Both the position numbers and the translations under genes were made by a program. Under the pieces are notes generated by a model, which was not told the origin of the DNA, did no database searches, and was given only the letters and a program-made list of their open reading frames with translations. Below, in pieces: positions 239 through 15,393 of a stretch of 20,457 nt of DNA. Numbering within the stretch: the first letter of the stretch is position 1; each line of letters opens with the position of its first letter. The DNA is from a virus: positions 1 through 20,457 of the IMG/VR virus record IMGVR_UViG_3300031801_001259; one strand, 5' to 3'.

Positions 239-424
239 ATGAGTTTTTCATCTACGAATGTTGTTGAAGCAAGAGAGTTCTGGGATCGAAAGATTAATTT
301 TTATATTCAACGATATGAATATGGAACAGATAGTCGTAGTAAATTTATAAATAATTTAGTACGAATGGGTTATAGACGCAAAGTAGTGGAAGACATACTT
401 AGGAGAGAAAAAAATGGCGGATGA
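239..424 (+). CDS. Small hypothetical protein, 61 aa
   Basis: A 61-residue protein that I do not recognise. The start ATG at 239 follows an AGGA ribosome binding site at 230-233 that overlaps the stop codon of the preceding gene. The protein is rich in Arg, Tyr and charged residues (REFWDRKINFYIQRYEYG, then MGYRRKVVEDILRREK), has no hydrophobic segment, and probably folds as two or three helices. Its last 11 bases overlap the start of the holin-like gene at 414, and its 3' end carries that gene's ribosome binding site (AGGAGAG, 401-407), so the two are probably translated together. No function can be assigned; the position suggests a late or lysis-associated accessory protein. Confidence 0.6.
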   Translation: MSFSSTNVVEAREFWDRKINFYIQRYEYGTDSRSKFINNLVRMGYRRKVVEDILRREKNGG

Positions 425-737
425 CGTAATAAAAGTAGTAGAAACTACTAAAGAATATGAATTACTAAAAAGCGATCTTATTCCAGAAGCAGGTGATGAG
501 CAACTTACGTGGTATAATCAAACAGCGGGAATGTTAGATAAGTTTAGAGTGATTCCTAGATTGATTATGCTCGCGTATATTTATGCGTTCTATTCAGCAA
601 CAGTTTGGTTTATGGGGTTAGTTGATCCTACCAATGCACAAGCTGCATTTATTTCTACTATTGTAGGTGCGGGTGCTGCTTTCTTTGGTCTATACGTTGG
701 TAAACCTGGTGCATCTTTGCCTAAACGTAAGAAATAA
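414..737 (+). CDS. Two-helix membrane protein, putative holin
   Basis: A 107-residue protein with a strong AGGAGAG ribosome binding site just upstream of ATG 414. Residues 1-45 are polar and acidic. Two hydrophobic segments follow, about residues 48-69 and 75-96; the second is rich in small residues (STIVGAGAAFFGLYVG). The end is basic (KPGASLPKRKK). Small size, two transmembrane helices and a charged tail match class II holins, which form the membrane lesions that release endolysin. The T4-type lysozyme at 3224-3664 in this window would be the natural partner, although it sits on the other strand about 2.5 kb away. The holin call rests on topology only; it could be another small phage membrane protein. 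It is the last gene of the rightward unit, ending 25 bases before a hairpin terminator. Confidence 0.5.
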   Translation: MADDVIKVVETTKEYELLKSDLIPEAGDEQLTWYNQTAGMLDKFRVIPRLIMLAYIYAFYSATVWFMGLVDPTNAQAAFISTIVGAGAAFFGLYVGKPGASLPKRKK

Positions 738-752
738 AATTAATTTAATAAT

Positions 753-781
753 AAAAAAAAAGCCCCTTACGGGGCTTTTTT
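753..781. terminator. Bidirectional intrinsic terminator between convergent units
   Basis: A perfect five-pair G+C stem (GCCCC 762-766 with GGGGC 771-775, loop TTAC) is flanked by a run of nine A on the left (753-761) and six T on the right (776-781). Read rightward the stem is followed by U6; read leftward it is followed by U9, so it can stop transcription from both sides. It lies between the rightward holin-like gene (ends 737) and the leftward secreted protein gene (ends 805), where convergent transcripts would meet. Confidence 0.92.
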
Positions 782-804: not shown

Positions 805-1722
805 TTAATTTGCCCATACTTGTATATTGGAAATAGACCAAATACTTTTACCAGTGGTATCACATAGGTTACCCCATGAACAAGCATCTGTCCATATACC
901 ACCAGCTCCTGGAGACCATCCTTGCCAGAAGCTAACTTCTAACCAGTAACCGTCAGCCATACTGCTGATTACTCGATCACGGTCAATTGTACCAGAACCT
1001 TCGTATCCAGATCCGTTATCTAAATTATAGACTTCAACACTTGCACTTCCTTGAGTATAGGTTACTGTCATATTACCTTGATCAAATTCAACTGTCATAT
1101 CAAAAGGCTGACTGATATCAATTTCACTCATACTGTGCATACCAGTTGATGATGTATTTAATTTACTTTGATCGTAACATTGACTTCCTACAGCAGTTGA
1201 GCTGTAAGTCATTTCATAACGTTGCGGAGCCGAGCTTCCACCATCACCTATATGCATTGTACTTTGTAAGAGAGAGTTACCATTTGTTTCAAAGAAATCT
1301 AACTCTTGACAATTCCATTCAGTATGAGAACCACCAGCATCACAATAGGTATCGGTACTAGATTTGGGTGTTTGACTAGGATTAGTGGGATTTGAAATGG
1401 CGTAGAATGTAGCATTTATAAATTGATTATCTAATTTGCTTAAATCTACTGTTGCAGTTATTTTGGAGATATTTTTATATGCTTTGTCGCTGTATAAACG
1501 TCCTGCACATGAGTTATTGCCTGAACCAAAAGTTATTGAGTTCCCGCCAGTGACTTTGGGGGGTCCTCCCGTACAACCTTGGTCATAATCCAATATCATG
1601 TTGGGCGTATAGGAATCAGAATTAGGAGTCAATACTCTCCATTCCACCTGGTCTATTTTGTCACACGCGCTTCCTAATAGTGCGGTGCCTATTACTAACA
1701 TTATAGGTAATATTTTCTTCAT
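805..1722 (-). CDS. Secreted or lipid-anchored protein with glycoside hydrolase clan GH-B-like motif
   Basis: A 305-residue protein with a signal peptide: positively charged MKK, a hydrophobic core to about residue 17, then GSAC with Cys20. That resembles a lipobox but has Gly instead of an aliphatic residue at -3, so lipoprotein versus ordinary secreted is open. Six further Cys follow the motif region and its surroundings (50, 72, 127, 138, 182, 281) plus Cys287, suggesting disulphides outside the cytoplasm. Residues 139-148 read QELDFFETNG: the ExDxxE pattern (E140, D142, E145) matches the catalytic motif of GH16 and GH7 glucanases, and H157 follows at the distance of the conserved His in GH7. 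The C-terminal half is rich in strands and aromatic residues, fitting a concanavalin-like sandwich. Substrate is unknown; a binding-only lectin is possible. It is the last gene of the leftward block, its ATG sharing one base with the dUTPase stop (TAATG). Confidence 0.6.
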   Translation of the reverse strand: MKKILPIMLVIGTALLGSACDKIDQVEWRVLTPNSDSYTPNMILDYDQGCTGGPPKVTGGNSITFGSGNNSCAGRLYSDKAYKNISKITATVDLSKLDNQFINATFYAISNPTNPSQTPKSSTDTYCDAGGSHTEWNCQELDFFETNGNSLLQSTMHIGDGGSSAPQRYEMTYSSTAVGSQCYDQSKLNTSSTGMHSMSEIDISQPFDMTVEFDQGNMTVTYTQGSASVEVYNLDNGSGYEGSGTIDRDRVISSMADGYWLEVSFWQGWSPGAGGIWTDACSWGNLCDTTGKSIWSISNIQVWAN

Positions 1723-2249
1723 TATTGTACTCCTGTACTTCCGAAGCCCCCTCTTTTTTGTAAAAGTTTAGCTTTCATTTCTTCGGCAAGCGAGATATTT
1801 TTTTCTTCTACTTTTTCCGAAATTTCATTTACATAAGTAAAATTAACTTGCGGAATTTCTCTAAAACATGCTTGAGCAATACGATCTCCTGGACGGATGA
1901 TAAAATCATTGAACATATCACAGTTGTAGAGTATAATTTGTACTTCTTTACGATATCCGAAATCAATAGTTCCGGGGGAGTTTAGAACAGAAATTCCTAA
2001 TGTATCTGCAAGGCCGCTACGAGAGCGTATTTGAATTTCCCAATTTGAATCACCTAACTCAAAATGTAATCCACTCGGGATAGTTGTGTGTCCCGTAGGT
2101 AGTAAAGTGAGGGGTCGAGAAATACAAGCTCGTAAATCAAATCCTGCATCATAAGGGAATTGTTGTACTAAATCCCACTTAATATTACATTGGATTTCTA
2201 GTTCTTTGGCTAATTTTGTTTTTTGAATTTTAACGTCTAAGTTCGACAT
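1722..2249 (-). CDS. dut: dUTPase (deoxyuridine 5'-triphosphate nucleotidohydrolase)
   Basis: Trimeric-type dUTPase, which hydrolyses dUTP to dUMP and pyrophosphate, keeping uracil out of phage DNA and feeding dTMP synthesis. All five family motifs are visible in order: YDAGFDLRA, RSRSGLA, the uridine-binding stretch SPGTIDFGYRKEV, RIAQACF, and the C-terminal RGGFGSTG arm that closes over the active site. The frame opens with an ATG at 2279, but I prefer the internal ATG at 2249, because it follows AAAGGA at a good distance while the upstream ATG has only a weak site; this gives 175 residues and a 20-base overlap with the exonuclease gene. Compared with about 150 residues in many bacterial enzymes it carries extra residues before motif 5. 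It works alongside the RNR at 4880-7003. Confidence 0.95.
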   Translation of the reverse strand: MSNLDVKIQKTKLAKELEIQCNIKWDLVQQFPYDAGFDLRACISRPLTLLPTGHTTIPSGLHFELGDSNWEIQIRSRSGLADTLGISVLNSPGTIDFGYRKEVQIILYNCDMFNDFIIRPGDRIAQACFREIPQVNFTYVNEISEKVEEKNISLAEEMKAKLLQKRGGFGSTGVQ

Positions 2250-3090
2250 ATTTGTTAAGTCCTTTCCATACTTCGTCACCGTCTTTTCCAGCTATAATTG
2301 CGTCTTTATTATATTTAGTAAGATTAATCATTTTTTCATTTCGAGATAATAAAGATTTACTTTCGTTAAGATTTCTAATATATTGACTTTTCCCTCGAAG
2401 GGGTAATGATTCTGTTAATGCAGGTAAATTGCGATATTTTTTAGCAAGAGTTTGTGCCCGTTTAGGACCAATTCCTGTAACTCCTATAATTGCATCACTT
2501 TTATCTCCTTCGATGTAACGAGATAGTAAATACTCTTTAGGAGTTATTTCGAGATTTTCTTCTAAATATGCTGGGGTAATTTCTTTTCGTGAAAATATAT
2601 TAAATATACTTACATTTTCATTAAGTAACTGATATAAATCTCTGTCACTTGAAATAATCCACGTATGTTCATACGAAGAAGATAATTTGATAGCTAAAAA
2701 TGCCATTAAATCATCGGCTTCTATACCTCGATATTTATGTTTGTCATAAGACATATCATCATAAATAGCATTAAGACAGTCAAAGAATTCATGATATTTT
2801 TGAATTTCTTCTTCATCAGTAGGCTTTTTGCGAGTACTTTTATAATCATCAGCGAGATTCATTCGATAATAGCTTTTACCAAAATCAAAACACACAATAA
2901 TGCGTTTAGCTTTATAACTATTACCTAAACTTTCAATTGTTCTGACGTAATCTTCTTCAAAATGGTTATAATTTTTTCTTTGAATCCACCTATAAGCTAG
3001 GTTATTTCCATCTATAATTAAAAGATTATTTTTTTCTCCTAGTTGATTTTGTACTGCGGCTAGATCATTCCAGCCTTTGGAGTCAATCAT
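2230..3090 (-). CDS. 5'-3' exonuclease / flap endonuclease (FEN family)
   Basis: A 286-residue structure-specific 5' nuclease of the family that includes T5 D15, T4 RNase H and the N-terminal domain of DNA polymerase I. It would remove RNA primers and 5' flaps; the family A polymerase encoded here has no such domain of its own. Visible: IIDGNNLAYR (Asp27), VCFDFG (Asp69), EADDL (Glu124, Asp126, Asp127), SSDRDL (Asp149, Asp151) and GDKSD (Asp196, Asp199), together the usual two-metal acidic cluster, then a helix-hairpin-helix IIGVTGIGPKRAQTLAKKY (201-219) that grips duplex DNA. ATG 3090 follows AAAGG (3099-3103 on this strand). It is preceded by the largest gap in the leftward block, which contains a promoter candidate (3114-3122). 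Confidence 0.93.
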   Translation of the reverse strand: MIDSKGWNDLAAVQNQLGEKNNLLIIDGNNLAYRWIQRKNYNHFEEDYVRTIESLGNSYKAKRIIVCFDFGKSYYRMNLADDYKSTRKKPTDEEEIQKYHEFFDCLNAIYDDMSYDKHKYRGIEADDLMAFLAIKLSSSYEHTWIISSDRDLYQLLNENVSIFNIFSRKEITPAYLEENLEITPKEYLLSRYIEGDKSDAIIGVTGIGPKRAQTLAKKYRNLPALTESLPLRGKSQYIRNLNESKSLLSRNEKMINLTKYNKDAIIAGKDGDEVWKGLNKYVELRR

Positions 3091-3223: not shown

Positions 3224-3664
3224 TCATATATTTCTCATCCTTTCAACTAATCTATCTGCTCTATTGGTTACTTGCTTGTACCAATTGCTATCAATCATCT
3301 CATCTGCGGCTGCGTTCCAATCACGCGCATCCACTCCACGTTTCATACCCTTGAATTTGCTCAGCCGAGGCAGACCCATATTGAACATCATATTAGCAAT
3401 CACTTGTTGAACTTCTTCGGGTAGGTGCTCAAACTGCACATAAAGTTTTTCACAATCTGACAGTACGTTTTGGACATCAAGATAAAATGCCTCTTGCACT
3501 CTATGTTCCTCAATCTCCGTTCCCACAGACCAACCATTTTCTGGATCGTGTACTGTTATCAAATGGCCGATGCCAAAAGTATCATAACCAAGATGATCTT
3601 TGTAGACCTCGTATTTGACGCCCTCATCTATTTCAAGTTGTTCTCTAAGTCTTTCTAAATTCAT
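3224..3664 (-). CDS. T4-type lysozyme / endolysin (GH24)
   Basis: A 146-residue muramidase that would cleave the glycan of peptidoglycan for host lysis. The N-terminus LEIDEGVKYEVYKDHLGYDT then GIGHLITV aligns with phage T4 lysozyme. The catalytic triad is conserved with identical spacing: Glu14, Asp23 and Thr29 match T4 Glu11, Asp20 and Thr26. The C-terminal helical lobe includes VIANMMFNMGLPRLSKFK, the family's typical NMxFNMG-like segment, and DWNAAADEMIDSNWYKQV. There is no signal peptide, so export depends on a holin; the protein at 414-737 is a candidate. The start ATG lies two bases after the stop of the VOC gene, and GAAAGGA inside that gene's 3' end serves as ribosome binding site. 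Its DNA is clearly richer in G+C (53 % in the 60-base line 3301-3360) than the exonuclease gene next to it (30 % in line 2941-3000). Confidence 0.95.
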   Translation of the reverse strand: MNLERLREQLEIDEGVKYEVYKDHLGYDTFGIGHLITVHDPENGWSVGTEIEEHRVQEAFYLDVQNVLSDCEKLYVQFEHLPEEVQQVIANMMFNMGLPRLSKFKGMKRGVDARDWNAAADEMIDSNWYKQVTNRADRLVERMRNI

Positions 3665-4879: not shown

Positions 4880-7003
4880 TTAAACTTCACAACCATCTGA
4901 ATCACAAAACTTAGTTGCATTCATATTTTCGCCTTCTTCATTGAGACTAGCAAAATCTAGAGGTTCTAAAGTATCACTGTACTTTTGCACTTCTTGTATA
5001 CTTGCTGAAATATAAGGTGCCTGTTTATATCCATGCTCGGAAAGGGGTAATAAAGATACTCCTTTTAATCTGTTATCAAAACACGATAAGGCTCGGGCAA
5101 TTTGATTTGTTTCATTATTATTAAAAGTAATTGTAATAGAAACTTGATTATCGGCCCAATAATATTGCAAATCTACAGCATTTGTAAATTGTTCCCAAAT
5201 TGAAACTTCTTTTTTTGAAATAATTCCCTCTGGGTGAATAACAGGAAAATAAACAACAATTGTTCGTATAGGATCTGATATAGCTGGTTCTATTCGATAA
5301 TTAGCTTTTTTTAATATTTTTATAAGAGGTGATATGGCTGATAAACGAATTGTTCTGTAGTATGATCTACTTTCGGCATAATGAATACCTGGTAATGATC
5401 CTGCTACTAGACTTACTGTTCCACTGGGTTTTATAGAAGTAGTTTTTCTAGAAAGGGGAATTCCAATCCATTCACTATACTTTTTATCTGCATATTGAAT
5501 ATATGAGTATGCTCTATCACAAAATTCATCTAAATACTTACGCCTTCCAAATTTTATAATAGCTTCTTGAATACCGCTTTGAGAACAACCAATTCGGTGA
5601 TTTCGTTTTATAACGTCATTGGTTTCCGACCAATGTGTTGCCATTAATGTAACTGTTTTGGCATAAAGATAAGCAAACTTAAGAGTTCTTTGATAGTCCC
5701 AATAATCTTCGTGTTTTGCAGGAAATGTTTCCACTAAACAACAAAGTTCGTAGGATTCTAACGACTGTTCTAAACAGGGATTCCCACCTTTAACTCGGCG
5801 ATCCTTCCAATCAGCCGGATCTTTCATTCGACTAAATTGTCGCATATTTTCTAACCACGCAAATCCTGGTTCACCACTATTGGCAATAGAATTTGCGGCT
5901 TCAGTGTAATCCATTCCAACTTCTGCAAATAATGAATTATTTGAAGCCCACCGCCATCCTCCAAATTTATATGCCCATTGCTCTTTACTGTATTTTTTCG
6001 CTATTTCTGTGCGGCTATCCAAATCTTTATTATAATGATTATACTCTTCTTCATTGATGGCTTTTAATTCTTCTGGAGCTTTCATTCCTGTTTCAACTTG
6101 GGCTGTTTCCCAATTTTTCATATTCATGAAATCCTCATCAGACGGATCAGAAAAAGCAATTTCTGCTGTTCTACGAACATTCCCTGCTACTACAATTTTA
6201 CCGATAATATTCATAATATCAACAATATCAACGGAGGTTAAAAGAGGATTTTCTGATAAAGCTCGTTTTTCTAAAATATCTTTAATTCCATAAAAACCTT
6301 GTACCAAAGGTTCAGGACCTGAAGCTACTCCTCCAAATCCTTTAATTGGTGCTCCATAAGGTCGTACTTGAGAGATATCAATATTAATAGATGCCGATCC
6401 TTCTTCTAAATAAGAATCGATTAGACAAGAAATAGCTTCCACCCAGCCTTCTCTCGAATCTTCTACTTGAAGTAACTCAGGTGCTCCTTCTGGAAGAGTA
6501 GATATAATTTTATTGGCACCTTTGGTATCAAAACCAACGCCTACACCCACCATACTCATATCCATTAAAAATGCAAATGATTTAGATAATTCAGCATCAA
6601 TATCTTCTGTTGAAACAAAAGCACAGTTATTAAGTGCTGCTCCACCTTTTTCCCAAATAAAAGGAGTTCCCATCATCCAGAGTCCTCGTCCTGGAGGCAT
6701 CCATTTAAATTCAAAAAGTCTTTCAGCGGCTTCTTGAGCTAGTTTATGTCCTTTATTTTCTTGCCAGGTAATCATAGAAGTTAGAGAATGAGTTTTTAAA
6801 ATTGAAAAAGTACCTTCGATTACTCGAATAACACAATCTGCCCATGTTTCTAGCTGTCCATTAGGTTGTTTTCTGGCATAAGTTCTGTAATAAGTAAATT
6901 CTGAGAGTCCTCCATAACCCCAGTTAACTTTTTTGTTCTTTAATTTTTCTTTAAAATCTTTTCGTAATAAAAAGGCAATTGGATTTTTTCCAGGTGCTAG
7001 CAT
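4880..7003 (-). CDS. nrdJ: Class II (adenosylcobalamin-dependent) ribonucleoside-triphosphate reductase, monomeric type
   Basis: A 707-residue enzyme resembling the monomeric Lactobacillus leichmannii reductase, which makes dNTPs from NTPs. The N-terminus has FTYYRTYAR and ETWADCVIRVIEG. Catalytic residues by alignment: Cys127 in NNCAF and Cys421 form the redox pair; Cys410 (thiyl radical) and Glu412 lie in GGNPCLEQSLESYELCC, with Cys410 to Cys421 spacing identical to Cys408-Cys419 of that enzyme. KPSGTVSLVAGSLPG binds substrate phosphate. The tail CDSDGC (Cys700, Cys705) keeps the CxxxxC shuttle pair. No separate small subunit is needed; the cofactor is B12, so the phage depends on host cobalamin but not on oxygen. 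ATG 7003 follows a strong AAGGAGA site. Glutaredoxin follows 16 bases later. A promoter candidate lies in the 58-base gap upstream. Confidence 0.95.
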   Translation of the reverse strand: MLAPGKNPIAFLLRKDFKEKLKNKKVNWGYGGLSEFTYYRTYARKQPNGQLETWADCVIRVIEGTFSILKTHSLTSMITWQENKGHKLAQEAAERLFEFKWMPPGRGLWMMGTPFIWEKGGAALNNCAFVSTEDIDAELSKSFAFLMDMSMVGVGVGFDTKGANKIISTLPEGAPELLQVEDSREGWVEAISCLIDSYLEEGSASINIDISQVRPYGAPIKGFGGVASGPEPLVQGFYGIKDILEKRALSENPLLTSVDIVDIMNIIGKIVVAGNVRRTAEIAFSDPSDEDFMNMKNWETAQVETGMKAPEELKAINEEEYNHYNKDLDSRTEIAKKYSKEQWAYKFGGWRWASNNSLFAEVGMDYTEAANSIANSGEPGFAWLENMRQFSRMKDPADWKDRRVKGGNPCLEQSLESYELCCLVETFPAKHEDYWDYQRTLKFAYLYAKTVTLMATHWSETNDVIKRNHRIGCSQSGIQEAIIKFGRRKYLDEFCDRAYSYIQYADKKYSEWIGIPLSRKTTSIKPSGTVSLVAGSLPGIHYAESRSYYRTIRLSAISPLIKILKKANYRIEPAISDPIRTIVVYFPVIHPEGIISKKEVSIWEQFTNAVDLQYYWADNQVSITITFNNNETNQIARALSCFDNRLKGVSLLPLSEHGYKQAPYISASIQEVQKYSDTLEPLDFASLNEEGENMNATKFCDSDGCEV

Positions 7004-8897: not shown

Positions 8898-9853
8898 TGA
8901 ATGTTTAATTCTTGAAATTCAGTGATAATACTTTTGGTATCTTCAATTTTAATATATTGAAGGTAAGCTTTAAGCTCTTCAATTAAAGTAAGGTCTTTTA
9001 ATTCTAATTTAGAGGATTCTTCGGGTTTAAATGCAATTTTTTTATCTAATTGATCATGGTTAGCTATTTTTGATAATTCATCAATACTTCCTGTAATTTC
9101 GTAAATAACATGATGATAGTCGTCTTTTTGCAATGTGTCACCTACTTTAATAGTTTTTCGAATTAATTTAGGGAGTTTGAGATCAATAAATTTTACTTTA
9201 TAGTCATTTATACTGTTAAAATCAATAATATCTATCCCATATTGTCTATTTTGATCTCTATCAAAAGAAACATTTAAAGGACTACCAGGATAATGAGCTG
9301 GATAATCCAAGTAACGATGATTAAAGTGTAAGTCACCCAAAAGTATAAGTTTCCAGGGACGAAGCTTTTCAAAATCATACTCGGGAGTGATGTGAGGTGG
9401 TACTTCTCCTCTAATATGCGTAACCAATATATCGTTAGGAACAGGCTTTGGTAAATTATCAATTTGCATTTCCCCATAAGGAAAAAACTGAAATCCTTGA
9501 CCGAGGAATTCTTTGCGTGAATTTTGAGTAATAACTTCCACATTTGAATTCTTAATAGCATTATCTTCATGAAAATGAGATAAGAATGTATGGCCTTTTT
9601 TAGTTGCTTCATGATTTCCCGGTATAATAAATGTTGGAATTGAGACTGAATTTACATACCTTAAAAATAAACAGATTTCATCTGGTTCTGGTTTTTTATC
9701 AAATATATCCCCCGCAATAATGTGAATATCACAATTTTGTTCATACTTTTGTAGCTTTTCATAGAATAACCTAAATCGATTAGCTTGCCATAGGCTTGGA
9801 ATTTTCTTTTTATGTAAAGCAATATGCCAATCAGCAGAAAGTAAGATTTTCAT
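8894..9853 (-). CDS. gp47 / Mre11 / SbcD-like recombination nuclease
   Basis: A 319-residue metallophosphoesterase-family nuclease, partner of the gp46-like ATPase. The metal-binding motifs appear in the family order: SADWH (Asp8, His10), AGDIFDKKPE (Asp49), PGNHE (Asn80, His81), VTHIRGE (His146) and LGDLHFNH (Asp174, His176). The C-terminal hundred residues, rich in Lys, Glu and Ile, would hold the ATPase-binding region. The complex trims DNA ends and gives 3' tails for strand invasion. The start overlaps the stop of the methyltransferase gene by four bases (ATGA) and its own stop overlaps the ATPase start the same way, making a tightly coupled trio. Confidence 0.95.
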   Translation of the reverse strand: MKILLSADWHIALHKKKIPSLWQANRFRLFYEKLQKYEQNCDIHIIAGDIFDKKPEPDEICLFLRYVNSVSIPTFIIPGNHEATKKGHTFLSHFHEDNAIKNSNVEVITQNSRKEFLGQGFQFFPYGEMQIDNLPKPVPNDILVTHIRGEVPPHITPEYDFEKLRPWKLILLGDLHFNHRYLDYPAHYPGSPLNVSFDRDQNRQYGIDIIDFNSINDYKVKFIDLKLPKLIRKTIKVGDTLQKDDYHHVIYEITGSIDELSKIANHDQLDKKIAFKPEESSKLELKDLTLIEELKAYLQYIKIEDTKSIITEFQELNIQ

Positions 9854-10575
9854 CTATTTACTTCCAATAGTAAGACGGATGTATTAAAATTAGCATGTTC
9901 ATGCGTGGGATGGTCATGTAAAAAACGATATCCAAGAAATTCGGGGTAATCTTTCCATAGAGTTTCTAAATTATTCGTATTAGGAAAATCGTTGTCATTA
10001 GTCCAATGCTTATCATTAACAAAAAAAGCATTTACCCCATTAGAATGAACTAATGAGTAGCCTTTGTTTCTAGCTAAGTTATAAAATGCTCGTAAACTGG
10101 CTCCATGATAAATATTATATGGTCCGGCATCCCAAAAGTCTGCATCATACTCAATAACTTGGTCACGTTCAACTCCTAGACAGGCATTATATTCGCATAC
10201 AAATGCTCTAACTTCATAATGAGTAAGAACTTCATATAAAATATACCAATCAATCCCATCAATATCAAGTGAAAAATAATCAAATTTTTGAGGAACATCA
10301 TATGATTTAAGAATATCAATAATATTTTCTCGGGTAATCATATGTTTTTTGAGATTAATTAAAGGATTTTCGTATTTAGCATCAATTTGAATACCATTCC
10401 AACTTAATTTCTCTCTGAGAAAACGAGTATTACATTCACTTCCGTCTTGAGTACCGATTTCTACAAAATAAAAAGTTTCTGTTCCAATTGCTCCAAAAAT
10501 ATGATTGGTAATACCATCTTCCCCAAATTGAGAATAAATTTTAGTTTCATATTGGTCTAGATTTTTAATTGGCAT
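9850..10575 (-). CDS. FkbM-like SAM-dependent methyltransferase
   Basis: A protein of 241 residues from ATG 10575; the frame runs to a TTG at 10599, but the ATG follows a GGAG-type site within the upstream gene and is preferred. YSQFGEDGITNHIFG is typical of FkbM-related proteins. FYFVEIGTQDGS (36-46) is the glycine-rich SAM-binding motif I; GIQIDAK places an acidic residue for the cofactor ribose; DYFSLDIDGIDW (99-110) is the downstream motif IV-like segment. FkbM relatives mostly O-methylate sugars or other small molecules. It follows a glycosyltransferase with an 11-base overlap, so the two may build or cap one glycan, on a virion protein, the host envelope or DNA; the target is unknown. 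It sits between the SSB-glycosyltransferase pair and the gp47/gp46 pair, an odd place for a decoration enzyme. Confidence 0.68.
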   Translation of the reverse strand: MPIKNLDQYETKIYSQFGEDGITNHIFGAIGTETFYFVEIGTQDGSECNTRFLREKLSWNGIQIDAKYENPLINLKKHMITRENIIDILKSYDVPQKFDYFSLDIDGIDWYILYEVLTHYEVRAFVCEYNACLGVERDQVIEYDADFWDAGPYNIYHGASLRAFYNLARNKGYSLVHSNGVNAFFVNDKHWTNDNDFPNTNNLETLWKDYPEFLGYRFLHDHPTHEHANFNTSVLLLEVNR

Positions 10576-11452
10576 TATGTTGAACAGCACTCCAATCAAA
10601 AATTTTATTTACATCACCTTCAAAAGTATAGCTTCCAACATGATTAAGTTTAGTATTTGGATCTAACCAAATTTGACCCCCTATTTTTTGCCAACGACGA
10701 CAAAAGGTATAATCTTCTGATAAGTAACGATTATCATCAGGATCATGAATTGTGTCAAAAAATGAATAACAATGTGGATTAAATTTGGCATCAATACTAC
10801 TATCATTCAAATAATGTAATTCTGGATAGCCTTCAATCATTTTATTCACTACCTCACGCTTCATTAACCAAAAACCAGTACTGGCATCGAGAACTTCTAC
10901 TGCTCCCATATCTACTCTAACTTGGTGTCTTTCTGGATCTGAAAATTTTAGATTAATAGCATAATCTACGGGTAAAGTTTTTTTCGGATAAGCTCCTGTA
11001 ATTAAATCTTTATCCATTGCCAGCATACGAATAACAGATTCTGGCTCAAATTCAATATCAGCATCAATAAACATTAGATGTGTACATTCTGTAGCTTCAA
11101 GAAACATTGCATTTAGAATATTACGTGCTCTAGGTACTAAACTTTCGTTTCTTAGAGTGGTGATTCTAAAATTAATATTATATTTTATAAGTTCTTGAGT
11201 TAAACGAAATATACTTAAAAAATATTGGTCGGTAATGAGTCCTCCATAACAGGGAGTAGCAAAGAAAATATTATGTTTTCTAATAAGATCCATGTCAATA
11301 ACGACTTGATCTCCGTCAATTTTTTTAAATGCGCCCCCAATATGTTCCTGTGTTGTTGGTATTGGAATAGTATTTGGGGAGGCCGCTGCCTCCCCAATTT
11401 TTTGTACCTGACCAGTATTTTGCACTAACTCATTAAGTTTGTACTTTTTCAT
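10565..11452 (-). CDS. GT-A-fold glycosyltransferase
   Basis: A 295-residue protein with a polar 55-residue N-terminal extension and then a nucleotide-diphospho-sugar transferase-like domain: NIFFATPCYGGLITDQYF opens the Rossmann half, RNESLVPRARNILNAMFL contributes a conserved Arg-rich helix, and HLMFIDADIEFEP carries the DxD metal motif (Asp130, Asp132). Later STGFWLMKREVV and LSEDYTFCRRWQKIGGQIW match the acceptor-side acidic motif of GT-A enzymes. Related genes are common in marine myoviruses, where targets are unknown. ATG 11452 follows the SSB stop codon directly, and AGAGGAT in the SSB gene end is the likely ribosome binding site. The next gene is a methyltransferase, which suggests glycan synthesis; no acceptor protein can be identified here. 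Confidence 0.78.
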   Translation of the reverse strand: MKKYKLNELVQNTGQVQKIGEAAASPNTIPIPTTQEHIGGAFKKIDGDQVVIDMDLIRKHNIFFATPCYGGLITDQYFLSIFRLTQELIKYNINFRITTLRNESLVPRARNILNAMFLEATECTHLMFIDADIEFEPESVIRMLAMDKDLITGAYPKKTLPVDYAINLKFSDPERHQVRVDMGAVEVLDASTGFWLMKREVVNKMIEGYPELHYLNDSSIDAKFNPHCYSFFDTIHDPDDNRYLSEDYTFCRRWQKIGGQIWLDPNTKLNHVGSYTFEGDVNKIFDWSAVQHNAN

Positions 11453-12832: not shown

Positions 12833-14127
12833 AGTATAAATCCTTGTTCTTGATACCAATTTAGTCTATTAAGCTGTTGTTTATGAACAATGGTGCCTCT
12901 AAATTGAAAATCTCTTATTAACGGATGTTTTTTATTGGGATGCTCTCGTAGAATTCTTCCAATTCGTTGCTCTAATTTAATAGGATTATTACTAGGACAT
13001 GTTAAATATAACGTATCTAACCTATGACAACTAATTCCTTCATCAAAGATTTTCGTAGATAAAATAGATTTATATTTAGTACCAGTGTGCGTTAAAATAT
13101 CTTTTCGTTGTTCTTCTTTAGTTTCTCCGATTAATAATACACTTCCTTTAATTAACTTTTGTAAAGCTTTTAACATATTAACTCTGTCAGATAAAATAAG
13201 AGGACATCGTCCATTAGCAATGTCCTGAGTGGCTATTTTACTAATTAAATTAATATATTCATGGCGTTCAGTTAGTTTATTTAATTGACGACTCCAATCT
13301 CTTTTAGGGTCTAAAACATGAAAAGGAATATCTGTATTAACTAATTCTACGAGTGGGTTGTCTTTTTTACTTAAATCTTCAGCATAAATTTTAAAAGGAG
13401 TGAAATAATCATTTAAAACTACGTGTTTTCCGTCTTTTCTTTTAGGGGTTGCTGTAATAGCTATCTTAATTTTACAATTAATATTATTAAGAGCGGCAGA
13501 AAAAAGCTCCGCTGGACATAAGTGGGCTTCGTCAACCATCACCATACTAAACTTATTATTAAGGGAGGGTAGCTTATTATATATACTTTTATATATTCCG
13601 ACAGTGACTTCTTGAAGATTAAACTCTCCATCTCCTATTGTTCCAATAGGAATACCTGGTAACTGTTTTTGAAGTTCCTCTTGCCATTGTTTAAAAAGTA
13701 ACTTAGTATGAACCATTATTAATGTAGGTAAATTGGCTTTAGCTATAATGTTACATCCTACATAAGTTTTTCCCCACCCACAAGGAGCTTGAAAAAGTCC
13801 ACTAGTTATGCGATCTTTTCTATTAAAAAATGCATCTACTACTTTTTGTTGTTCGGGACGTAATTGTCCTTTAAATGTAAATTTAGTTTGAGCTTTGGTA
13901 AATTTTCGGTGGTCTGTATAATTTTCTAAATCAAGTTTATAGTAGGCGTTACTAGGAATTGTATACAATTCACTTTCTTGATCATAGTTAAACCATTCAA
14001 ATATTTCTTTATCAATAATTTCTCGAAATTGAGATTCAAACTGAGCAGAATCGTAGATATCTTTTTTAAAAATATATATTTTATCTTGTAAAATAGCATT
14101 TTTAATTTTAATTTTTTGGTTCATCAT
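12829..14127 (-). CDS. uvsW: Superfamily 2 DNA helicase, UvsW-like
   Basis: A 432-residue SF2 helicase resembling T4 UvsW, which remodels branched DNA (R-loops, stalled forks, Holliday junctions) and favours recombination-dependent over origin-dependent replication. An N-terminal domain of about 85 residues precedes LRPEQQKVVDAFF (Q-motif-like), Walker A APCGWGKT (114-121, Lys120), PTLIMVHTKLL (motif Ia), MVMVDEAH (Walker B, DEAH at 199-202), AITATPKRKDG (motif III) and EQRIGRILRE (motif VI with arginine finger). The start ATG 14127 (or the ATG one codon on) overlaps the PyrB gene by about 20 bases with no clear ribosome binding site. Its stop overlaps the NifU start as ATGA. RadA-like and UvsX-like recombinases are not in this window. 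Confidence 0.92.
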   Translation of the reverse strand: MMNQKIKIKNAILQDKIYIFKKDIYDSAQFESQFREIIDKEIFEWFNYDQESELYTIPSNAYYKLDLENYTDHRKFTKAQTKFTFKGQLRPEQQKVVDAFFNRKDRITSGLFQAPCGWGKTYVGCNIIAKANLPTLIMVHTKLLFKQWQEELQKQLPGIPIGTIGDGEFNLQEVTVGIYKSIYNKLPSLNNKFSMVMVDEAHLCPAELFSAALNNINCKIKIAITATPKRKDGKHVVLNDYFTPFKIYAEDLSKKDNPLVELVNTDIPFHVLDPKRDWSRQLNKLTERHEYINLISKIATQDIANGRCPLILSDRVNMLKALQKLIKGSVLLIGETKEEQRKDILTHTGTKYKSILSTKIFDEGISCHRLDTLYLTCPSNNPIKLEQRIGRILREHPNKKHPLIRDFQFRGTIVHKQQLNRLNWYQEQGFIL

Positions 14128-14989
14128 CGAGGAAACTTCTTAATAAGGATTTTCTTATAAGTAAGCCATTAGCAATTTGTTTAAAATATTTAGCACGCGG
14201 ATCTACGTCAAACCATGTAGGTATTTCATTTTGTCGAGGAAAAGGATGCATCACAATCATATTCTTTTTAAAGTTCTTAACATTATTCTTAGTTAATTCA
14301 TAGTTTCCTACAGAACCTCTTTCTTTTTGAACTCTGGTTATGTACAGAACATCAGACTGTTGACAAATATTCTTGGTTAAGATTAAAGAAAGAGAAATAT
14401 TTACTCCGTGAGCATATTCAAAGGGAGCAGCTAAATTATCAGGACTGACTAAATTAATTTTTACATTAAAATCTTTTAAACTATGTAATAAACTATGAAT
14501 AGTTCTTCCATTTTTTAAATCTCCCATTAAAGTAATGGTAAGATTATCAATAGTGCCTTTTTCGTTCCAAATAGTATATAAATCTAATAAAGTTTGTGTT
14601 GGATGTTCTCCTATCCCGTCTCCTGCATTAATAATAGGAACTGTAGATACTGCAGCGGCTCTTTGAGCCGCGCCTTTTTCGCCATGTCGTAATACAATAA
14701 GATCTACATAACTTGCTATAGTTCTAATGGTATCCTCTAACGTCTCTCCTTTTGTAACACTTGAATAATTTACTTCGTTAATAGGAAGAACAGCATATCC
14801 TAATTGTGTAGCGGCACTATGAAAACTTGCACTTGTTCTTGTAGAAGGTTCATAAAATAAAGTAGCAATTTGTTTTTTAGTAGTAAAATCTTGATATTTA
14901 AATCCATATTTTTCGCTGTCTATTGATTTAAAAAGATTATAAAGACTTTTTTTGTCGTATTGATCTATAGATACTAAATGTTTCATCAT
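14108..14989 (-). CDS. pyrB: Aspartate carbamoyltransferase catalytic chain
   Basis: A 293-residue enzyme that joins carbamoyl phosphate and L-aspartate to carbamoyl-aspartate, the committed step of pyrimidine synthesis. FYEPSTRTSASFHSA holds the carbamoyl-phosphate site (Ser49, Arg51, Thr52), SSVTKGET has Lys80, VLRHGE has Arg101, GDGIGEHPTQTLLDLYT has His129 and Gln132, GDLKNGRT has Arg162, TRVQKERG has Arg219, and MHPFPRQNEI is the 260s loop. These match E. coli PyrB Arg54, Lys84, Arg105, His134, Gln137, Arg167 and Arg229, so it should be active. It is the catalytic chain only; no regulatory PyrI is present, so feedback control by CTP may be absent. ATG 14989 overlaps the preceding stop as ATGA; an upstream TTG (15001) is less likely. 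Ornithine carbamoyltransferase is excluded by the aspartate-type motifs, judged by eye. Confidence 0.95.
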   Translation of the reverse strand: MMKHLVSIDQYDKKSLYNLFKSIDSEKYGFKYQDFTTKKQIATLFYEPSTRTSASFHSAATQLGYAVLPINEVNYSSVTKGETLEDTIRTIASYVDLIVLRHGEKGAAQRAAAVSTVPIINAGDGIGEHPTQTLLDLYTIWNEKGTIDNLTITLMGDLKNGRTIHSLLHSLKDFNVKINLVSPDNLAAPFEYAHGVNISLSLILTKNICQQSDVLYITRVQKERGSVGNYELTKNNVKNFKKNMIVMHPFPRQNEIPTWFDVDPRAKYFKQIANGLLIRKSLLRSFLDDEPKN

Positions 14990-15393
14990 TGCAGGGCCCA
15001 AACATATTCCAAGTTATTAGGCTCAATCCACCCATATTTACCATAAAATTCAGGGTCTTTTCTGAGTAGATTTGACCTATGACTAGCATGAAGTTTTTCA
15101 TCTCCAAACCAAGGGGGGTAGTCATCATCACTTAATTCACCTACATCTACAATTTTCATGGTATTTTTATACCCTCTACCTTTCCATAAAATAATAGAAA
15201 GATTCATGTATTCTGTAAGTGCTTTTTCATATCCACGCCACATTTTGGTTGCAGGGTGGTTAATCCAACCACCTTTTTCACGTTTCATAGCATTAAGTAG
15301 TTGCATTGCTTCTACTCGTTGTTTACCTAAACGTCGATAATCAAGACAATCTAGGGATAAAACAAAATCATCATAAGGTAAAAATGTTTGCAT
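14986..15393 (-). CDS. Pyrimidine-dimer DNA glycosylase (Pyr_excise / MSMEG_6728-like) family protein
   Basis: A 135-residue protein that closely fits the bacterial MSMEG_6728-like family, assigned to the pyrimidine-dimer glycosylase/endonuclease V group. It starts MQTFLPYDDF, and has LDYRRLGKQRVEAMQLLNAM (17-36), NHPATKMWRGYE (45-56) and PPWFGDEKLHASHRS then LLRKDPEFYG (93-118), all hallmark segments. T4 endonuclease V removes UV-induced pyrimidine dimers using its N-terminal Thr amine and Glu23. By eye the Glu position here is Asp18 and the residue after Met is Gln, so activity by the T4 mechanism is uncertain. A repair role would suit a phage in sunlit water. The start codon shares one base with the stop of the preceding unknown gene (TAATG). 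Confidence 0.85.
   Translation of the reverse strand: MQTFLPYDDFVLSLDCLDYRRLGKQRVEAMQLLNAMKREKGGWINHPATKMWRGYEKALTEYMNLSIILWKGRGYKNTMKIVDVGELSDDDYPPWFGDEKLHASHRSNLLRKDPEFYGKYGWIEPNNLEYVWALQ

Follow-up and report, generated by a model that had tools for sequence, protein, structure and literature searches.

A phage-encoded secreted protein family related to GH7 glycoside hydrolases

What is a secreted protein with a motif recalling glycoside hydrolases doing at the end of a phage operon, and which enzyme family, if any, does it come from? The question was raised by the window analysed here, the whole 20,457-base record of an uncultured virus, for which a preliminary description had proposed a clan GH-B glucanase or a lectin derived from one. 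The features of the window needed to answer it are as follows.

805-1722, minus strand: GH7-like secreted protein (GH7L), 305 amino acids, ATG start, described from the family alignment and a structure model
1663-1722, minus strand: predicted signal peptide (residues 1-19) and lipobox Cys20 (LGSAC) with Asp at +2, by the PS51257 pattern, not SignalP
1339-1347, minus strand: invariant Y126-C127-D128, aligning with GH7 'YCDa/s'
1288-1305, minus strand: putative catalytic E140-x-D142-x-x-E145, aligning with GH7 ExDxxE, on predicted strand 139-147
1252-1254, minus strand: invariant H157, aligning with the GH7 histidine
1730-1734, minus strand: Shine-Dalgarno sequence AGGAG, preceding the GH7L start
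756-781, minus strand: strong 11-pair intrinsic terminator just 3' of GH7L, ending the operon
1722-2279, minus strand: dUTPase, co-transcribed, upstream of GH7L
2230-3090, minus strand: 5'-3' exonuclease
3224-3664, minus strand: phage lysozyme of the GH7L operon, a candidate endolysin
4880-7003, minus strand: ribonucleotide reductase, upstream in the GH7L gene string
414-737, plus strand: small membrane protein, convergent to GH7L, phrog_10198

The ATG of GH7L overlaps the dUTPase stop codon (TAATG), and the gene string that ends in GH7L comprises DNA polymerase, SbcCD-like genes, ribonucleotide reductase, phage lysozyme, exonuclease and dUTPase. Since the terminator (781-756) lies directly 3' of it, GH7L is the last gene of the operon, as had been proposed; the operon itself is not the purely replicative one of that proposal, for it includes the lysozyme gene (3224-3664). 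The same gene string also carries an aspartate/ornithine carbamoyltransferase gene at 14108-15001 on the minus strand (PF02729, 5.5e-41; PF00185, 6.8e-20), which is unusual for a phage. Glyoxalase-like (PF00903; 3666-4094) and NifU-like (PF01106; 12557-12859) genes of this phage were found on the minus strand as well.

As a single sequence, GH7L gave no significant match in Pfam, PHROGs, NCBIfam, PDB (phmmer), INPHARED or PLSDB. The GH7 model PF00840 was not found in the window, even as a one-genome search, and no scanned family member reached it. In IMG/VR, 103 stretches matched a degenerate DNA pattern encoding C-x-E-[hydrophobic]-D-[hydrophobic]-x-E-[TA]-N-G, and all 103 decode to the GH7L family. 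The members found in this way share a wider signature, YCDAG...C.E[IL]D..ETNG....Q.T.H, and were 33-52% identical to the window protein. A family-profile search of IMG/VR yielded 111 relatives; 72 distinct relatives formed the set for the locus counts, with 73 distinct members in the lipobox count and 74 sequences in the alignment. When three family members were compared with INPHARED (50,697 phage records) by tblastn, no match was obtained, and thus no phage in INPHARED is known to carry GH7L. The family is missed by annotation pipelines, being detected by no tested model.

Y126, C127, D128, C138, E140, D142, E145, N147, Q153, T155 and H157 were invariant in 74 of 74 aligned sequences. For C138, E140, D142, E145 and N147, which are part of the search pattern, this invariance arises partly by selection, while Y126, C127, D128, Q153, T155 and H157 lie outside the pattern, as do R75 and D93, which are common to the pattern-found relatives. 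The placing of E140, D142, E145 and H157 around QELDFFETNG in the preliminary description was correct in its numbering. With regard to the disulfide set typical of GH7, conserved cysteines are few (positions 50, 127, 138, 182, 281 and 287), and W266 is replaced by His in 10 of the 74 members. The dN/dS values of close pairs, where computable, were 0.07-0.18, indicating that GH7L is under purifying selection.

When a profile of 38 members was searched against PDB, the best match was 8pof (the GH7 RsSymEG1; E=8.8e-13), followed by 6su8, 1q9h and 1a39, and all matches with E<0.5 were GH7. In the alignments to GH7, the YCD, the C-x-E-x-D-x-x-E-x-N and the histidine all line up. Comparison of the family with four GH7 segments, taken from printed alignments, by hhalign gave a probability of 97.9% (E=6e-13). 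PF00722 (GH16) was not found in the window, and the family profile gave no sequence-profile match to GH16 in PDB. An AlphaFold model of GH7L (pLDDT 85.3, pTM 0.84) is a beta sandwich in which predicted strand 139-147 bears the motif, aligned with GH7 ExDxxE. With this model, ranks 1-37 in Foldseek were all GH7 (best 6.6e-10) and GH16 appeared from rank 38. Against 8pof, VIA gave a Z of 16.9 over 243 residues (rmsd 4.0, 22% identity) and against GH16 a Z of approximately 15.5, where values within Z 1 count as tied and several GH7 entries tie with 8pof. That the motif was a coincidence was therefore rejected: every pattern match belonged to one family, and GH7 matches were obtained both by profile and by Foldseek. 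Profile, hhalign and structure agree on the homology to clan GH-B that had been suggested, with GH7 nearer than GH16. They support the reading of GH7L as a divergent phage branch of this clan, closest to GH7. We call it GH7-like and not a formal GH7 member because the PF00840 cut-off was not passed.

The N-terminus of GH7L, MKKILPIMLVIGTALLGSAC, fits the PROSITE lipobox pattern PS51257 with Cys20, so that a signal peptide with a 'near-lipobox' cysteine was a fair description of the window member. Of 73 distinct members, 54 passed the pattern, frequent forms being LAAC, LSAC and LFGC, and several of the failures were truncated or near-misses. From its Asp at +2, the window member would be predicted to stay in the inner membrane, and most other members, which have no Asp at that position, would be expected in the outer membrane. 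Apparent cleavable signal peptides replaced the lipobox in L127, L141 and L163; L082 and L103 had no clear export signal at the N-terminus. Judged from these N-terminal patterns, export of GH7L is supported across the family.

The carriers of GH7L are tailed phages of bacteria, including T4-like jumbo phages, and not viruses of eukaryotes. A T4-type gp23 was present on 10 of the 40 GH7L contigs tested, among them contigs of 524, 303, 267 and 231 kb, and the gp23 of the 524-kb contig shared 64-67% identity with its counterparts in jumbo phages of Vibrio, Sinorhizobium and Pseudomonas. This contig (L245, IMGVR_UViG_3300027749_002876, 524,565 bases) carries GH7L beside nrdB. Across 84,980 species (one genome per species), a scan with two strict peptide patterns, by which distant bacterial relatives may be missed, returned a sole bacterial relative, L185, in a planctomycete MAG with ordinary chromosomal neighbours. 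In a sample of 392 genomes from its phylum, 1 had a GH7L relative, namely L185 itself, with no second. The L185 protein (9386-10762, 458 residues) combines a sub-threshold dockerin-like N-terminus with a GH7-like C-terminal domain and, from its sequence, is a possible bacterial GH7-like enzyme.

A second secreted family, family F, was recognised by the signature C-[GA]-[AG]-S...P-T-G...C-P (examples: L105:7640-8359 and L127:9854-10453; F loci L256-L335). It is found on at least 547 IMG/VR contigs, had no match in Pfam, PHROG, PDB or INPHARED, and its AlphaFold model (pLDDT 83) is beta-rich. GH7L and F occur in a common locus or fused in 16 of 72 distinct loci, with F as the C-terminal part of a GH7L fusion in L111, L128, L169 and L251; neither the window nor the majority of GH7L loci contains F. 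As judged by neighbour clustering and the PHROG names of representatives, a holin or endolysin gene lies within four genes of F in 52 of 77 F loci. In L095 (4154-5437), GH7L is C-terminally fused to another domain, 'NDTDQDM', which matches no known family, and a lipoprotein resembling it follows the fused GH7L gene in L111 (4690-5202).

Taken together, GH7L is probably an exported GH-B retaining endo-beta-glucanase, nearest to GH7, whose substrate would be an envelope or extracellular glucan and whose action would come late in infection, a reading to which we give slightly better than even chances. The protein would leave the infected cell via Sec and, in most members, would be tethered as a lipoprotein. 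The roles of the catalytic triad are well established for GH7. By this correspondence, beta-glucan would probably be hydrolysed by double displacement with retention, E140 being the nucleophile, E145 the acid/base and D142 assisting. An endo mode is likely since GH7L, at about the size of RsSymEG1, is too short to accommodate the long loops with which cellobiohydrolases form a tunnel. The target would be a glucan of the envelope, the capsule or the surrounding matrix; we infer this target, and a late action, from the export signal, the indirect link to lysis through F and the lysozyme gene in the window operon. The benefit may be help in the release or spread of progeny or, as a second choice, a surface change excluding other phages. 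In a bolder form, tailed phages would be the main prokaryotic home of a deep GH7 branch, which an ancient transfer may connect with the cellulases of eukaryotes, and GH7L and F together would form a lysis exit module acting on envelope or matrix glucan; we regard this extension as rather unlikely.

The genomic setting bears on a different role for an active GH7-like hydrolase, in which it would serve nutrition or metabolism as an auxiliary metabolic gene, supplying sugar to the infected cell alongside nucleotide synthesis. In L081, whose dUTPase is 71% identical to that of the window, the same operon stops at the dUTPase without GH7L and a phrog_10198-like small membrane gene adjoins it, while L056 (dUTPase 74% identical) has two small lipoprotein-like genes in the GH7L position. 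GH7L was in the locus of none of the 21 ribonucleotide reductase relatives with at least 1.5 kb after the dUTPase. GH7L is thus an accessory gene, close relatives of the window phage being without it at the same locus. At 52-55% identity, the GH7L proteins nearest to that of the window come from other phages, some of them of the T4-like group, and the position of the window sequence in the tree was not secure. Across the family, GH7L most often neighbours genes of nucleotide metabolism, from which no substrate can be guessed: nrdA or nrdB lies within two genes of GH7L in 40 of 72 distinct loci, with GH7L between the two or after either. This proximity, the ribonucleotide reductase and dUTPase genes of the window operon and the carbamoyltransferase of the same phage would suit a metabolic role. 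However, the varying position beside nrd fits a variable insertion slot as well as it fits a function, and no sugar uptake genes were noticed near GH7L; such a role seems unlikely to us. A nucleotide-pathway function drawn from the nrd neighbours was rejected because the position is not constant and because F is found at a comparable one in L258 and L333. In these two T4-like loci, F is beside nrdB and next to ORFs that by eye resemble homing endonucleases. An HNH-like ORF between nrdA and GH7L in L092 had no Pfam match. Cargo genes appear to have a hot spot in the nrd region.

The lectin half of the original proposal has fared less well than the GH-B relation, which stands. A lectin that descended from GH7 and lost its catalytic activity could, when displayed on the surface of the host, block adsorption of other phages, for example. 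Phage lipoproteins are able to exclude superinfection, T5 Llp being an example, and lipoprotein display by the lipobox pattern and the accessory, mobile distribution of GH7L are compatible with such a role. Some loss of catalytic residues would be expected of a lectin, whereas E140, D142, E145 and H157 are kept throughout the alignment (74 of 74), which makes a lectin quite improbable. Very improbable is a virion-associated depolymerase used for entry, for although phage tail proteins can have GH-B-like folds (weak BFVD matches) and a PAAR protein gene lies 3-5 genes off in T4-like loci, nearly all full-length members have a signal peptide or lipobox, no tail-attachment domain was seen in GH7L and the genes expressed together with it in the window are nucleotide genes rather than tail genes.

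A secreted endo-beta-glucanase of this descent in phages would matter for GH7, which is a leading cellulase family. GH7 was long thought to be fungal and was later found in other eukaryotic kingdoms, and a 2015 review described it as exclusively eukaryotic, its role in prokaryotes being filled by other families (PMC7571853). Our literature search, which covered open-access papers and had most subscription papers outside its scope, found no report of GH7 in phages. Sandaracinus, considered as a lead to a bacterial GH7, was rejected because the source (PMC5010890) is a statement of absence. With a phage branch, the phyletic range of GH7 would need revision, its origin could be approached from a new starting point, and the family would gain a compact lipoprotein form. 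The known equipment of phages, T4-like jumbo phages and others, would in turn include one more component that acts on polysaccharides.

Among known systems, the GH75 viral chitosanase V-Csn of soil viruses is, like GH7L, carried by phages and wide in IMG/VR, but it belongs to an unrelated family, and its activity has been demonstrated (PMC9485262) whereas that of GH7L is predicted. The GH16 glucanases, such as VvEG16 and the laminarinases, share the GH-B sandwich with GH7L; the YCD and ExN motifs of GH7L point to GH7. The fungal and crustacean GH7 cellulases (Cel7A/Cel7B) were top Foldseek matches and have the fold, the ExDxxE and the YCD in common with GH7L. They differ from it in sequence (13-20% identity) and in length, having 370-445 residues with loops that GH7L is too short to hold. 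The closest counterpart is RsSymEG1 (8pof), the GH7 endoglucanase of a termite protist symbiont. This enzyme is eukaryotic, only 22% identical and has a different cysteine set, the W and A of its WEAN are replaced in GH7L by [FILMV] and the T of ETNG, and, unlike RsSymEG1, the GH7L family is mostly lipoprotein-like. RsSymEG1 is nevertheless the best match of GH7L by both profile and structure, and it resembles GH7L in being short and in its aligned YCDA, CNELDxWExN and histidine.
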